Assembly: GCF_009831455.1 (NCBI RefSeq)
Contig: NZ_WOWO01000002.1
Location: 186,001 to 250,000, forward strand
From: Salinirussus salinus
Lineage (GTDB): Archaea > Halobacteriota > Halobacteria > Halobacteriales > Haloarculaceae
DNA: 64,000 nucleotides
Direction: 5' to 3'
A model generated the notes under the pieces. The model was not told the DNA's origin and did not search any database. It saw only the letters and a list, made by a program, of their open reading frames with translations. Every line of letters starts with the position of its first letter. Positions within the stretch are counted from its first letter, which is position 1. This document shows, piece after piece, positions 15,779 through 22,667 of this stretch. Position numbers and translations under genes: made by a program.

Positions 15779-16732
15779 TCAAGCCGTTCCGAACGCGTCG
15801 GCGAGGTGTTCGCCGAGCCGGTCCAGCGCGTCCTGGCCCTGCGGGATCGCCTCGGGCAGGCTGACGAAGGCGTGGATCATGTCTTCGTAGTGGAGGTGTT
15901 CGGTGTCGACGCCGTCCTCGACGAGCCGGTCGGCGTAGCGGATTCCCTCGTCGCGGATCGGGTCGAAGCCGGCAGTGATGACCGTCGCGGGCGGCAGCCC
16001 CGAGAGAGCGTCGGCGAGTAGCGGCGACGCGTACGCGTTGCGGACGTGCGCGGGGCTCTGGACGTAGTTCTCGTAGTAGAACTCGACGGTCTCGGTCTCC
16101 AGGAAGTAGCCTTCGGCGTTCTCCTCGTGGCTGGGGATGTCGTGGAGGACCGGCGAGGCCGTCCCCGGATAGATGAGGCCCTGGTAGGCCAGGTCGGGGC
16201 CGCCCTGGTCGCGGGCCATCAGCGAGACGGCGGCGGCGAGGTTACCCCCGGCGCTGTCGCCCGCGACGGCCAGGCGGTCGGGGTCGCCATTTATTTTCTC
16301 GCCGAACTCCGCGGCCCACTCGACGGCCCGGTAGGCGTCCTCGAGCCCCTCCGGGAAGGGGTGTTCGGGGCTGAGCCGGTAGTCGACCGAGACGGTGAGG
16401 CAGTCGGCGCGGTTGGTCAGCGCCGCACAGACGTTGTCGTGGGTGTCGAGGCTGCCGACCATGAACCCCCCGCCGTGGTAGTAGACCAGCATCGGGTAGG
16501 GCGGCTCGGCGTCGGGCTCGTAGACCCGCAGCGGGATGGGTCGGTCGGTCGTCTCCGGGCCGGCGATGCTGTACTCCTCGGTGTTTTCGACGTCCTCGAC
16601 GGGCAGGTCGCCCATGATGTCCTCCAGGCGCTGCCGGGCGCTCTCGGGGGAGAGGCCGTCGCTCGACGGCACCGGGACGGCTTCGGACATCTCGATGACT
16701 TCCCGCGCGGCGGGGTCTGGTTCGTCTGCCAT
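15779..16732 (-). CDS. Alpha/beta hydrolase, HSL-family esterase, copy 2
   Basis: A 317-residue paralogue of the esterase at 13023-13976. Motifs: MLVYYHGGGFMVGS (oxyanion hole), AGDSAGGNLAAAVSLMARD (nucleophile Ser), VITAGFDPIRDEG (Asp), and YEDMIHAFVSLPE (His). The ATG at 16732 gives MADEPDPAAREVIEMSEAV. The frame is open further upstream, but there it becomes Arg/Gly-rich with no conserved pattern. The two copies flank the SDR and toxin-antitoxin genes, which suggests segmental duplication or repeated gene acquisition. The substrate is unknown. Confidence 0.92.
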   Translation of the reverse strand: MADEPDPAAREVIEMSEAVPVPSSDGLSPESARQRLEDIMGDLPVEDVENTEEYSIAGPETTDRPIPLRVYEPDAEPPYPMLVYYHGGGFMVGSLDTHDNVCAALTNRADCLTVSVDYRLSPEHPFPEGLEDAYRAVEWAAEFGEKINGDPDRLAVAGDSAGGNLAAAVSLMARDQGGPDLAYQGLIYPGTASPVLHDIPSHEENAEGYFLETETVEFYYENYVQSPAHVRNAYASPLLADALSGLPPATVITAGFDPIRDEGIRYADRLVEDGVDTEHLHYEDMIHAFVSLPEAIPQGQDALDRLGEHLADAFGTA

Positions 16733-16895: not shown

Positions 16896-19439
16896 ATGGA
16901 CGAGCTACCCGATGGGCGGGGAGTGGCGACTGGCGGTGCCACGAACGGGACGGCGGAGGCAGTCGACGGGGAGGCCACGGGCGAGGGGGCCGCCGCGGGC
17001 GAGGACGACACCGCGGCGCCCGGCGTGTTCGCCGAGTTCCTGGCCACGGTTCCGGACCCGGTCCTCGTGGTCGACGGGGAGCTGTCCGTCGTCGCGGGGA
17101 ATCCACAGTTCGGCGAGGAGTTCGGCCGCGACCCGGCGCGGCTGCGGGGCGAGCCGGTGTCGACGGTGTTCCCTGCCCTGACCCGGGACCAGGTGGTCGG
17201 TAACTGCGACGACGGCACCGGCGAGTACGTCACCACCCCGGTCGCCGGCGCGGGGCGGGGGCGACGGACTTGGGTCGACCTGGCCTTCGACCGCCACCAG
17301 CTCAACGGCCGGACCTACTTCGTCGGCGTCGCCCGGGACGTCACGGCAAAGCGCCGCCACGAGCGCGAGCGCGAACAGTACGAGCGGATCCTCGAGACGA
17401 TCGAGGACGGGATCTACGTCCTCGACGAGTCGTTCGTGATCGAGACCGTCAACTCGGCCGTCGAGTCGATGACGGGCTACGACCGCTCAGAGCTGGTCGG
17501 CGAGCCGGCGACGGTTCTGACCGACGAGTCGACCATCGACGAGGCGGCCAGACTCAGCGAACAGTTACGCACCGGCGAGCGTGAGGTCGGGACGCTGACG
17601 ACGGAGCTGCGGACCGCGGCGGGCGAGACGTTCCCCGTCGAGACCCGTTTCTCGACCTACAGGGACTCCGACGGGAACTACAGGCAGGTCGGCGTCGTGC
17701 GCGACATCTCCGACCGCCGGCAGTTCGAGGAGACCCTCGCTACCCTCCACGGCTCCACCCGCGAACTCCTCGAGGCACAGACCACCGAGGAGGTGAGTCG
17801 GCTTGTGGTCGGCTCGGCGACGGACGCCCTCGACGTGGAGGGGGCGGCGATCTACCGGTTCGACCAGTCGGCCAACCGCCTGGTCCCCGAGACCGTCTCG
17901 GGGTCGCTAACCGTCGTCGACGGGTCGACCGCCGTTGACGTCGGCAACAGCCCGGTCTGGGACGCCTTCGTCGACGACGAGCGCAGGGCCGTCTCGGCCG
18001 ACGGCAGCCACCGCTTGGCCGCGTCCGACTCCTCCGCCGACGGGGCGGAGGTCGCCGGGCTCTGTTTCCCGCTCGGCTCCTACGGCGTCTTCTACGTCTC
18101 GCTGGGGGCCGAACGGCAGTGTTCGGACGTGGTCGGTGTGATGGAGGTGATCGCCGCCAACACCGAGGCAGCGCTGGCCCGCGTCGACCGCGAGCAGGCG
18201 CTGCGCGAGCAGGAAGACCAGCTCCTGGCCCGGAACCGCCGTCTCAGGCGCCTCGAGGAGGTCAACGCCATCATCCGCCGGATCGACGGCGCGCTCGTCG
18301 ACGCCGACACCCGGGCCGAGGTCGAGCAGGCGGTCTGTGACGGGCTCGCGGACTCCGACCTGGTCTCCTTTGCGTGGGTCGGCGCGTCCGACGGCGTGGA
18401 ACTCGACGCCCGCGCGTGGGCGGGCGGGGGGTCGGACTACCTGGACGCCGTCCCGCTGGAAACCGGCAGCGAGGCGCCTCCGCCTGCGGTCCGGGCCGTT
18501 CGAGACCGGGAGATGACCGTCGTCTCCTCGGTCGCGGCGGACCTGCGCGAGGAGGCCTGGCGGACCGAGGCCCTGTCGCGGGACTTCCGGTCGGCACTGA
18601 GCGTCCCGCTCCAGTACGAGGAGTTCACCTACGGCGTGTTGACCGTCTACGGGACAGAGCAATCGGCGTTCGACGAGACCCTCCGGTCGGTGTTCGCGGA
18701 ACTCGGGGAGACGATTGCCAGGGCAGTCTGTGAGATCCAGTCGAGGCGACAGCGCTCGGGCGCGACGACGGTCGAGCTGGACGTGTCGGTGTCGGCTCCG
18801 ACCGACCCGCTCCAGCAACTCGCCGACCGGCTCGGAACCCGTGTCGACTGTGCTGGTGTCGTCCCCGACGAGGCGGGAACGACCCGGCTGTTCGTCCGGA
18901 TAGGGGACGGCGCCGACACCGGGGCGGTCCGGGACTGCTGTGCTGACCTGACCCGTGTCCGGTCGGTGACGGTGGTCACAGACGATGACGGCGAGGCGCC
19001 CCCCCTCTACGAGGTAGTCGTCTCCGGAGACACCGTCCCCGGGACCCTTCTGGACCGCGGCGTCCGGGTCAGCTCGCTGTACGCAGGGGCGGAGGAGTCG
19101 GGCCTGTCAGCGACGGTTCGGCTTCCGCCGGGACTCGACGTCCGCGGGCTGGTGGAGTATCTCGACGCCCTCTACGGCTCGGCGCAACTGACCGCGCGCC
19201 GCGAGCGCGACATCGCGGACCGCTCGGAGCGTGGGGTGCGAGCGACTGTCGAGAAGCGGCTGACAGAACGCCAACTCCAGGTGCTCCGGACCGCCTACTT
19301 CAGCGGCTTCTTCGAGTGGCCCCGCAGGACCACCGGCCAGGACCTCGCCGGCAAGTTCGACGTCTCCCAGCCGACGGTCAGCCGCCACCTCCGGAAGGGG
19401 ACGGGACGCGTTCTCGATATCCTGTTCGAGACTGCCTGA
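16896..19439 (+). CDS. PAS/GAF sensor with bacterio-opsin activator (Bat) and HTH-10 domains
   Basis: An 847-residue cytoplasmic sensor-regulator. In order: an acidic Gly-rich leader (about 1-45), a first PAS domain (about 45-155), a second PAS with a PAC end RQVGVVRDISDRRQFEE (about 165-280), a GAF domain (about 285-430), a coiled linker, a second GAF (about 460-610), a Bat domain, and a C-terminal HTH-10 at about 789-840 with LTERQLQVLRTAYFSGFFEW and FDVSQPTVSRHLRKG. Bat-type proteins activate genes in response to light or oxygen in haloarchaea; which cue this one senses is not visible. No obvious flavin or haem motif was seen in the PAS domains. Confidence 0.93.
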   Translation: MDELPDGRGVATGGATNGTAEAVDGEATGEGAAAGEDDTAAPGVFAEFLATVPDPVLVVDGELSVVAGNPQFGEEFGRDPARLRGEPVSTVFPALTRDQVVGNCDDGTGEYVTTPVAGAGRGRRTWVDLAFDRHQLNGRTYFVGVARDVTAKRRHEREREQYERILETIEDGIYVLDESFVIETVNSAVESMTGYDRSELVGEPATVLTDESTIDEAARLSEQLRTGEREVGTLTTELRTAAGETFPVETRFSTYRDSDGNYRQVGVVRDISDRRQFEETLATLHGSTRELLEAQTTEEVSRLVVGSATDALDVEGAAIYRFDQSANRLVPETVSGSLTVVDGSTAVDVGNSPVWDAFVDDERRAVSADGSHRLAASDSSADGAEVAGLCFPLGSYGVFYVSLGAERQCSDVVGVMEVIAANTEAALARVDREQALREQEDQLLARNRRLRRLEEVNAIIRRIDGALVDADTRAEVEQAVCDGLADSDLVSFAWVGASDGVELDARAWAGGGSDYLDAVPLETGSEAPPPAVRAVRDREMTVVSSVAADLREEAWRTEALSRDFRSALSVPLQYEEFTYGVLTVYGTEQSAFDETLRSVFAELGETIARAVCEIQSRRQRSGATTVELDVSVSAPTDPLQQLADRLGTRVDCAGVVPDEAGTTRLFVRIGDGADTGAVRDCCADLTRVRSVTVVTDDDGEAPPLYEVVVSGDTVPGTLLDRGVRVSSLYAGAEESGLSATVRLPPGLDVRGLVEYLDALYGSAQLTARRERDIADRSERGVRATVEKRLTERQLQVLRTAYFSGFFEWPRRTTGQDLAGKFDVSQPTVSRHLRKGTGRVLDILFETA

Positions 19440-19569: not shown

Positions 19570-19863
19570 ATGACGGAGACGACAACTTACCAGCTGTCCG
19601 CCGACGAACCGACGAGTACCGCAGTCGTGAAGTGTGTCGCGGAGGCGAATGGCGTCGAACCGTGTTCGCTGGACGACCGGCTCTACGACCACGTCGACCC
19701 GGACGCCCTCGACTCTCTGTTCAACACGGACGGCCGGGGTGCCATCGACGTGACCGTCTCCTTCCGGATGGCCGGCTGCCGGGTCACCGTCGACGACACC
19801 GGGACAGTCTCCGTCACGTACACGGAGGGCGTGGAAGCAGCCACCCCGAGCGCCCTCTCCTGA
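19570..19863 (+). CDS. HalOD1 output-domain protein
   Basis: A 97-residue stand-alone HalOD1 domain. The family hallmarks are STAVVKCVAEANGVEP, LYDHVDPDALDSLF, VTVSFRMAGCRVTV and a closing Thr/Val strand. HalOD1 was named as an output module of haloarchaeal signalling proteins; single-domain copies are abundant and their target is unknown. It follows the Bat regulator by 130 bases on the same strand, so the two may be coregulated, but a separate AT-rich promoter stretch (about 19525-19560) makes independent transcription as likely. Confidence 0.9.
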   Translation: MTETTTYQLSADEPTSTAVVKCVAEANGVEPCSLDDRLYDHVDPDALDSLFNTDGRGAIDVTVSFRMAGCRVTVDDTGTVSVTYTEGVEAATPSALS

Positions 19864-20157
19864 GCGGAGTCCGAACGGTCTTCTCCGGGTTTCCGGCCCC
19901 AAAGCGGCCGGTAAGCACTTCTTACGGCTACCTCGTGCCCGGTCCGGCAGTCGAGAGCCTGGATACTAGCCACGACGCTGCTGGTATCCAGGTATGGAGA
20001 ACCGGTACGTAATCCGGACCAACCCACTGATGTCACGCAAAAATAGTCTTTAGAGTAGGTAGTTCATACCCGGTCGTGTACCACCGAGACTCCCGACCCG
20101 TCGAGACGACCGCCCCTGTAAGTGACTCCCTACCGCACCGGACCGACGACCCGAACC

Positions 20158-21120
20158 ATGGCGACTAACGACGCCCGCGCTACCGACACGGGGTTTCTCG
20201 ACCGGATCGATAGCGTGACGCTGCCGGAGCCGGTGGATTCGCTGGCCGAGGAGTACGACGCGCTGTTCGAGGAACGCGACCGGTTTCTCTGGCGGTGGAT
20301 CTACTCGCTGTTCCCCGCCTTCACCCTCTCGTCGGTGCCCGAGACTCACGCCCGCCACGTCCGCACGCAGAAGACGGTGTTGACGATGTACGTGACGGTG
20401 CTGGACGACCTCGTCGAGCACCACGGCGACAGACGGACCTTCGAGGAGGCCCGGCGGCTGAGCCGCGACCCGGCGGCGGTCGACCGCGACCGGGTCGAGG
20501 TGACCGACGAGCAGTTCGCGTTCATCGAGGAGCTCTGGGAAACCTTCGCCGCGGGGATCGGGGACGCCCCGCGCCACGACGAGTTCGCCGACGTGTTCGA
20601 CTACGACATGCGCCAGACGACCAACGCGATGCACTACAGCGCGGTCGTCAACCGTCACCCGCGGATCGCGAACCTCAGCGGCGCGCGCCGGTACGACGCG
20701 CACAACATGGTCATGTTCCCCTACGCGGACGTCGACCTGATGTACTCGCCGTCGTTCTCGCTGGCCGACTTCGGCACGCTCCGGGACCTGCTGTGGGACC
20801 TGCAGGAACTGGCCCGGATCGGCAACTGGCTGACCACGTGGGAACGGGAGGTCAGAGAGGGCGACTACACCGCCGGGATCGTCGTTCTCGCCCTGGAAGA
20901 GGGGGTCGTCACCCCAGAGACGCTCCAGCAATCACCGGACGCGGCGGTCGCGGCGATCCAGGACAGCGACGTCGAGGCCCGCTTTCGCCAGCGGTGGCGG
21001 ACCAAGCACGCGAACGTCCGGACCCGGGAGTTCGACACCGAGAGCGTCGACCTCCGTGGGCTCGTCGACGGGATGGAGACGGTCTTCGAGTACCACCGTG
21101 CGAGCCGCGGGCACAAGTAA
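20158..21120 (+). CDS. Probable class I terpene synthase (terpene cyclase)
   Basis: A 320-residue all-helical protein with no membrane segments. The Mg-binding acidic motif DDLVE is at residues 83-87. An NSE-type triad occurs as NWLTTWERE at 223-231: Asn223, Thr227 and Glu231 in the canonical spacing with Arg230. An Arg pair at 177-178 lies 46 residues before the triad, where bacterial terpene synthases place the pyrophosphate sensor. Length and motif spacing match microbial mono/sesquiterpene synthases. The reaction would be ionisation and cyclisation of a prenyl diphosphate such as FPP or GGPP. The C-terminal RY motif is not clear (EYHRASRG at the end). The ATG at 20158 is preferred over upstream in-frame codons. 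No prenyltransferase or P450 is adjacent. The assignment is by motif, not by search. Confidence 0.68.
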   Translation: MATNDARATDTGFLDRIDSVTLPEPVDSLAEEYDALFEERDRFLWRWIYSLFPAFTLSSVPETHARHVRTQKTVLTMYVTVLDDLVEHHGDRRTFEEARRLSRDPAAVDRDRVEVTDEQFAFIEELWETFAAGIGDAPRHDEFADVFDYDMRQTTNAMHYSAVVNRHPRIANLSGARRYDAHNMVMFPYADVDLMYSPSFSLADFGTLRDLLWDLQELARIGNWLTTWEREVREGDYTAGIVVLALEEGVVTPETLQQSPDAAVAAIQDSDVEARFRQRWRTKHANVRTREFDTESVDLRGLVDGMETVFEYHRASRGHK

Positions 21121-21198: not shown

Positions 21199-22407
21199 CT
21201 ACGCCGCATCAGCGGTGGGAAGGTCGTCCTCTCCACTCACGTTCAACGTCCCGCGATTCAAGCGCACGTCTACAAGTGCGCCTCCGTCGTCTGCGTTTTG
21301 CCGACGCCGGAGATACCGAAGGCCGATGTTTTTCGCCGCGTTGTAGTCGGCGTGGTTCTGGTAGCCGCAATCCTGACACTCGAAGTCCTCACCGTTGCGG
21401 TTGTCGTCGTGAGTAAACCCACAGGTCGAACACCGCTTCGAGGTGTTCCGTGGGTCTACTTGGACGGCTTCGACGCCCTGCTCTCTGGCTTTGTATTCGA
21501 CGTACTCATAGAGGTGACGGAACGCCCACAGATGGTGCCACGACGCCTGTGGGACGTTCTCACGGATGTGGGTCAGGTCCTCGAATACGATATGCGAGCA
21601 GTCGTGTTCGACGGCTTCGACTACGAGTTCGTTGGCAACACGATGCAGGAACATCTCGAAGCGTCCGTCCTCCTTGCGCTCGACACCTGCTATCGCCTCG
21701 TGTGCCGCTCGCGTTCCGCACTGTTGCAGGTCGCCACGCCGCTTCTCGTACTCTCGTTTCCAGTGGTTGAACTCGTCTGCCGACCAGAACCGCCCGGTCG
21801 AAGCGACCGCGAGTTGATTCACACCGAGGTCCACCCCGAGGACTGTTCTGTGCCTGGTGGTGGTGTCGGTGTCGTCGTCCTCTTTGAGCATCGACGCATG
21901 GAGATACCAGTCGCCGTCGCGTCGATGGAGTGTTGCCCGCCGAAACTCGTAGTCCTCGTCTGTGACGTACTTTGTCGGCGGTACGTCGGTATCGTCGGGG
22001 AGAATATAGTCACACTCGATACGCCTATCCGGTGTCGAGAGCGACACGTGGTCACGGTGGAAGGTGGCACTTCGCTTGTCGTAGACGGCGGTATCAGCTG
22101 TGAGCGTCGGACGGGACGTATCTTGGCCGTTTTTGAGCCGCTCGACGCCGCTCTTGACTGATTCGACAGCTTGGCGAATCCCCTTCTGGACGAGATTTGC
22201 GGTCAACTCCGTGTCCTCGCGTAGCTGGTCGTACAGCGCATCTTCGGCCTTTACTTTCGATGTGACGTGGTAGCCGTCATCGCCGTGCCAGCACCACTCG
22301 CTCGCGGTGTTGGCGCAGTATTTGAATTGCTCGACAGTCTCCCGCAGGCGTGCATCCGCGCCTTCGGGTGCTTCGAGCTTGATAACGGCGGTTCGACGGC
22401 AGTCCAC
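21199..22407 (-). CDS. tnpB: TnpB RNA-guided endonuclease (IS200/IS605 accessory protein)
   Basis: A 402-residue TnpB with a full RuvC nuclease core: Asp in RTVLGVDLGVNQLAVAS, Glu in IVFEDLTHIRENV, and Asp in NHADYNAAKNIGLRY. A four-Cys zinc ribbon CSTCGFTH...CQDCGY lies between the last two. TnpB is guided by an omega-RNA made from the element's right end, which here overlaps the 3' end of the gene. The start chosen is GTG at 22407 (VDCRRTAVIKLEAPEG), where homology-like sequence begins. The open frame upstream to 22644 is made of hairpin-encoded Arg/Pro-rich residues. It appears intact, with no frameshift. Confidence 0.9.
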   Translation of the reverse strand: MDCRRTAVIKLEAPEGADARLRETVEQFKYCANTASEWCWHGDDGYHVTSKVKAEDALYDQLREDTELTANLVQKGIRQAVESVKSGVERLKNGQDTSRPTLTADTAVYDKRSATFHRDHVSLSTPDRRIECDYILPDDTDVPPTKYVTDEDYEFRRATLHRRDGDWYLHASMLKEDDDTDTTTRHRTVLGVDLGVNQLAVASTGRFWSADEFNHWKREYEKRRGDLQQCGTRAAHEAIAGVERKEDGRFEMFLHRVANELVVEAVEHDCSHIVFEDLTHIRENVPQASWHHLWAFRHLYEYVEYKAREQGVEAVQVDPRNTSKRCSTCGFTHDDNRNGEDFECQDCGYQNHADYNAAKNIGLRYLRRRQNADDGGALVDVRLNRGTLNVSGEDDLPTADAA

Positions 22408-22497
22408 GATATTTTCACGTGCCAGGTTGAGGTTACATAATCGTTGGGAGTTGGCAGGCACCAGTTTGGCGGCTGGTCGATACCGGGTCAGCTTCCT

Positions 22498-22559
22498 CCC
22501 CACCCTACTCGCTTGTGCTTCCGCCGGGGCCGGAAGCCCGGCGCTCCTTGAGGGTGGGG
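22498..22559 (-). repeat. Second TnpB-end-like hairpin upstream of tnpB
   Basis: 22498-22506 pairs perfectly with 22551-22559 (9 bp), and 22517-22523 pairs with 22531-22537 (7 bp). On the minus strand it reads CCCTCAAGGAGCG ... GAGTAGGGTGGGG, close to CCCTCAACGAGCG ... GAAGTAGGGTAGGG at the true right end (21121-21180). It may be the fossil right end of an earlier element or a duplicated scaffold. Confidence 0.5.
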
Positions 22560-22667
22560 CCTCCGCCTCGAATTTGATGAGGCCGCGACCCTGCCCTGTT
22601 CTCATACACCGTAATTTCAGCTTATCTGAACCGTTCGCCAGCATAGGAGTCTCCTACCGGTAGGGTT

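Follow-up and report, generated by a model that had tools for sequence, protein, structure and literature searches.

Identification of a terpene synthase-like gene

Does a haloarchaeal gene at positions 20158..21120 of the analysed DNA encode a class I terpene synthase? Archaea live on isoprenoid lipids, and cyclic terpenes made by class I cyclases are, to our knowledge, hardly described among them. The DNA, called the window below, is a whole stretch of 64,000 nucleotides from Salinirussus salinus (contig NZ_WOWO01000002.1, positions 186,001 to 250,000). An earlier note on it had read the gene as a class I terpene synthase, and our analysis supports this: very probably the gene is an archaeal member of that enzyme class. 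This is the best reading because four partly independent tests agree on it, namely the match to Pfam family PF19086, the Foldseek comparison of a predicted structure, the alignment of profile hidden Markov models (HMM-HMM alignment) and the invariance of the putative metal-binding residues in haloarchaea and methanogens alike. The features of the gene are as follows.

20158..21120, plus strand: class I terpene synthase-like gene, 320 amino acids (open reading frame, PF19086, Foldseek, family conservation)
20404..20418, plus strand: predicted metal-binding motif DDLVE, residues 83–87 (family alignment)
20686..20688, plus strand: Arg177, previously proposed as pyrophosphate sensor, not conserved
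20815..20850, plus strand: plant-like Arg220 and NSE-type triad N223/T227/E231 with R230, residues 220–231 (family alignment)

The open reading frame, as drawn in the earlier note, is real: translation of the window gives an ATG start, 320 residues and a stop codon at 21118–21120. A GTG at 20122 is an alternative start that would add 12 residues; the ATG is favoured by most homologues. Directly 3′ of the gene lies an OrfB-type transposase-like gene (21199–22644, minus strand), identified by sequence reading. Elsewhere in the window, between 46000 and 58000, the GC content falls from ∼70% to 45–53% and the open reading frames resemble glycosyltransferases and a sulfatase-type enzyme, and this segment is probably an acquired surface-polysaccharide island.

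Family assignment and predicted fold

In a profile search of the kind that the earlier note had suggested, the window protein scored 23.9 bits with PF19086 (Terpene_syn_C_2), a margin of 0.2 bits over the cut-off of 23.7, and the same profile matched 23 of 27 family members (E up to 1; best 2.3e-8). The score for PF03936 was below cut-off, PF00348 and PF00494 gave no match at E up to 10, and no NCBIfam family matched the protein. A phmmer search of the PDB returned chance matches only (endochitinase, E 0.005) and was set aside.

The AlphaFold2 model, built from the window and homologue sequences, is all-alpha (pLDDT 86.3, pTM 0.86), with lower confidence in the NSE region (mean 68 around residues 221–230). 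The terpene-synthase fold that the earlier note had proposed to look for is recognizable in it, as every one of the best 50 Foldseek matches listed from the PDB is either a terpene synthase or a prenyl diphosphate synthase. The best of them are aristolochene synthase (E 1.8e-3) and T-muurolol synthase (TM up to 0.57). Among the matches listed the strength is modest, with E values from 1.8e-3 to 2e-2, none below 1e-3, and TM scores of about 0.45–0.58.

Eleven terpene synthases of Streptomyces clavuligerus served as controls. The HMM-HMM alignment between the archaeal family and these enzymes extends over 277 columns with both motifs in register: D83/D84 fall on the bacterial DD, N223/T227/R230/E231 fall on NDxxSxxKE, and the alignment continues through a shared GD (‘E..xGD’). 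Its score is 33.6, as compared with 10–18 for reversed profiles, for the genome's own polyprenyl synthases and for its squalene/phytoene synthase-type (SQS/PSY) proteins, the last two of which are a weak control since they were compared as single sequences; in that single-sequence comparison they showed no profile similarity to the family.

Conserved motifs of the predicted active site

Conservation was counted in an alignment of 91 homologues, 90 of which were scored at D83, D84 and residue 87. The DDLVE motif is present at residues 83–87, as had been claimed, and is near-invariant. D84 is found in 90/90 sequences and D83 in 88/90 (Asn in the other two), and residue 87 is acidic in all 90 (Glu in 73, Asp in 17). 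D83, D84 and E87, which lie within model helix 62–88, correspond to the Asp-rich DDxxD/E motif of class I terpene synthases. The second motif, also found at the residues previously named, has the (N,D)xxx(S,T)xxxE form of the NSE triad, with N223 and E231 kept in 91/91 sequences and T227 in 90/91 (Ser in the remaining one); a second Asp-rich motif is absent from the 91-homologue alignment. R230, W228 and D236 are each present in 91/91, W224 is likewise invariant, and an H-N-M stretch (residues 182–184) is located at a helix break. Taken over the alignment, the conservation of the DDLVE and NSE-type motifs is far beyond chance, and the acidic and NSE-type residues, whose conservation among orthologues the earlier note had singled out as a check, are kept in 88–91 of ∼91 sequences. 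That note was also right that a clear C-terminal RY motif is missing: the alignment contains no RY pair ∼80 residues past the NSE motif, and at the place where it would fall, H313 is conserved in 79/91 homologues.

The arginine near the putative diphosphate site called for a different assignment. R177 does sit 46 residues before N223, as reported earlier, and an Arg at exactly this distance occurs in 9 of the 11 Streptomyces controls. However, the proposed role of R177 as pyrophosphate sensor is not borne out at the level of the family: because Arg occupies the position in only 14/91 homologues, with Glu the commonest residue (30/91), R177 is probably not the family's sensor. R220, three residues upstream of N223, is Arg in 90/91 homologues. 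The family profile has a single match in the PDB, a weak one (E 0.76) to the NSE region of Arabidopsis terpenoid synthase 18 (AtTPS18), in which Arg is paired with Arg at N-3 and Asn with Asn. Arg441 of tobacco epi-aristolochene synthase (TEAS), which touches the diphosphate, occupies what we take to be the same place as R220. From its conservation, the AtTPS18 alignment and the position of Arg441, we infer that R220 may form a plant-like diphosphate contact.

Distribution of the family

The gene is no peculiarity of a single haloarchaeon. The family occurs in 100/341 Halobacteria genomes and in 36/81 genera, and 46 of the 146 genomes of the same taxonomic family carry a homologue. The 25 named loci are from Haloarcula, Halosimplex, Halorientalis, Halobaculum, Halorubrum and others. 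The genome that contains the window has three copies, the window copy among them; the other two are 42–45% identical to the window protein:

L059, 8132–9088, plus strand: paralogue in the same genome
L060, 8144–9085, minus strand: paralogue in the same genome

Beyond the class Halobacteria, homologues are also found in several genomes that belong to the same phylum. Methyl-coenzyme M reductase is present in 7/9 of the homologue-bearing genomes tested there, so these seven are methanogens or their close kin, and six loci in methanogen-type, mcrA-positive genomes (L089–L094) have intact metal motifs. A plasmid search found relatives on six replicons, with ‘hypothetical protein’ as the annotation in the plasmid records checked; since all six replicons are haloarchaeal, the plasmids give no sign of recent bacterial transfer. 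No relative was found on viral contigs.

Linked regulators and a candidate operator

Two regulatory genes precede the synthase in the window, in the order Bat-type regulator, HalOD1 protein, synthase, and both are conserved neighbours of this synthase clade:

16896..19439, plus strand: Bat-type transcription regulator (PAS, GAF, BAT and HTH_10 domains; Pfam BAT 4.2e-28, HTH_10 2e-17), with an inferred start, the longest open reading frame opening at 16536
19570..19863, plus strand: stand-alone HalOD1 protein, 97 amino acids (Pfam HalOD1 3.1e-24)
20001..20011, plus strand: ACCGGTACGTA, candidate regulator site ∼150 bp before the synthase start, sole match in the window

Among 83 synthase loci, some of which are copies of one genome so that the counts are not independent, a Bat-type gene lies within 4.5 kb in 33, mostly together with HalOD1, a FilR1-like winged-helix regulator is found in 11, both types in one and neither in 40. 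The variety of arrangements and the grouping in the tree carry more weight than these counts. The Bat linkage takes three arrangements, the Bat-type gene being upstream in the synthase's own orientation (window, Haloarcula), divergent (in Halorubrum, among others) or downstream (L050, L061, L127). Chance adjacency of a Bat-type gene and a synthase would be rare because the genome has 11 BAT-domain matches. In the tree, Bat-linked synthases group in one part and the FilR1 type in two others. Seven loci of another clade (L098, L101, L102, L109, L114, L115, L122) have the terpene synthase followed on its own strand by a FilR1-like regulator and then by HalOD1, and a FilR1-like regulator precedes the own-genome paralogue L059 and occurs in L070 and L071. 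In a further group (L099, L100, L113, L124, L125, L126), also from another clade, an MBL-fold hydrolase recurs beside the synthase, often divergently.

Alignment of the upstream regions of the synthases revealed a single short shared element. Its form ACCGGTACGTA has one match in the window, where 0.10 are expected. The element GGTACGTA lies 150 bp ahead of the window synthase and at about -230 to -270 in Haloarcula and near kin; it is enriched upstream of the synthase in Haloarcula relatives and recurs before their Bat gene. GGTACGTA is thus a candidate for a shared operator of the synthase and Bat genes, in a comparison where closely related species predominate.

Biosynthetic context

No tailoring enzymes adjoin the window copy. 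There is also no adjacent prenyltransferase, as previously stated; the genome's three polyprenyl synthases and two true PSY/SQS genes are all located outside the window, and the three polyprenyl synthases could supply the substrate. In a clade adjoining the Bat-linked group, one homologue (L112, 1305–14327; G307 C1:545500–562500) is part of a biosynthetic-looking cluster with a cytochrome P450 (1.3e-88), SnoaL, UbiA, an O-methyltransferase, a flavin-binding oxidoreductase, an alpha/beta hydrolase, an aminotransferase and a second methyltransferase. Related flavoenzymes are also encoded near L069, L073 and L116. Such surroundings favor a biosynthetic role for the family, though not specifically for the window copy.

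Proposed mechanism and alternative readings

In the proposed mechanism, D83/D84 and N223/T227/E231 would coordinate three Mg2+ ions, and these would in turn anchor the diphosphate group of the substrate, a linear prenyl diphosphate (GPP, FPP or GGPP) provided by the cell's own polyprenyl synthases. The diphosphate would be touched by R220 and R230, and not by a bacterial-type Arg at -46. Ionization would produce a carbocation, which the enzyme would steer towards a terpene, probably a cyclic one, and the product may be a new cyclic terpenoid. The adjacent Bat-type sensor/regulator, partnered by HalOD1, probably governs expression. A more elaborate scenario, which we regard as quite doubtful when taken as a whole, is a regulated haloarchaeal terpenoid module. 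In it, a Bat- or FilR1-type regulator and HalOD1 would switch on the synthase through GGTACGTA as operator, the product would be membrane-active or a diffusible signal, and the synthase family would be of long standing in archaea, methanogens included, instead of a recent bacterial import.

The class I fold and chemistry could also serve a reaction other than cyclization, either formation of a prenyl alcohol or alkene that stays linear, or prenyl transfer, in a prenyltransferase-like or phosphatase-like activity. The fold matches include polyprenyl diphosphate synthases, UbiA and methyltransferases stand beside some homologues, and a cyclic and a linear product are indistinguishable by sequence. 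However, the NSE triad, a hallmark of terpene synthases, takes the place of the second Asp-rich motif, and neither PF00348 and PF00494 nor, as single sequences, the genome's polyprenyl and SQS/PSY enzymes resemble the family, so that we consider a non-cyclase unlikely. The tight linkage to regulators, the absence of the sensor Arg and RY pair typical of bacterial enzymes, and the usual lack of biosynthetic genes beside members of the window's clade would all fit a catalytically dead relative that senses prenyl diphosphates together with the neighboring Bat and HalOD1 proteins. Retention of every metal ligand throughout the alignment would be unusual for a dead enzyme, though, and the sister-clade member L112 lies in a biosynthetic cluster; such a sensor is accordingly very improbable. 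Least credible of all is a chance resemblance to the motifs in an all-helical protein outside the superfamily, an idea to which the weak whole-protein scores with known families might point and which is largely refuted by the invariance of the motifs in 91 sequences, the Pfam matches in most members tested and the restriction of the best 50 fold matches to one superfamily.

Comparison with known class I terpene synthases

Our literature search, which covered sources other than subscription journals and preprints, found no publication that deals with a class I cyclase of haloarchaea or with its linkage to regulators. Archaeal terpene synthases are the subject of a preprint (Samusevich et al., bioRxiv 10.1101/2024.01.29.577750) cited in PMC12797696, and PMC13235557 describes the expression of archaeal terpene synthases; such enzymes are apparently active in yeast. 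Terpene clusters were identified in Halomicroarcula by antiSMASH (PMC8600319), and the text of that article does not allow them to be equated with the window gene. A synthase family that combines linked regulators with an altered diphosphate site would represent an open reservoir of terpenoid chemistry, and its Haloarcula members, whose hosts are amenable to genetics, allow direct tests of both product and control.

By its fold and metal motifs the protein is a class I terpene synthase that lacks two bacterial features and has conserved residues and regulators of its own. With bacterial class I enzymes (PF19086; Streptomyces, T-muurolol synthase) it shares DDxxE/D, the NSE-type triad, a basic residue before its Glu, the following GD, the alpha fold and profile homology. 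In contrast to them, the archaeal family has neither a conserved Arg at -46 nor RY, is marked by invariant W224, W228, R220 and the H-N-M stretch, and resides in haloarchaeal and methanogen hosts. Plant class I enzymes (PF03936, e.g. AtTPS18 and TEAS) have in common with it the ‘R..N...T...E’ spacing, in which an Arg precedes the first triad residue by three positions. They differ from the window protein in that the latter consists of a single alpha domain without the beta domain, contains no identified RxR motif and scores below the PF03936 cut-off.
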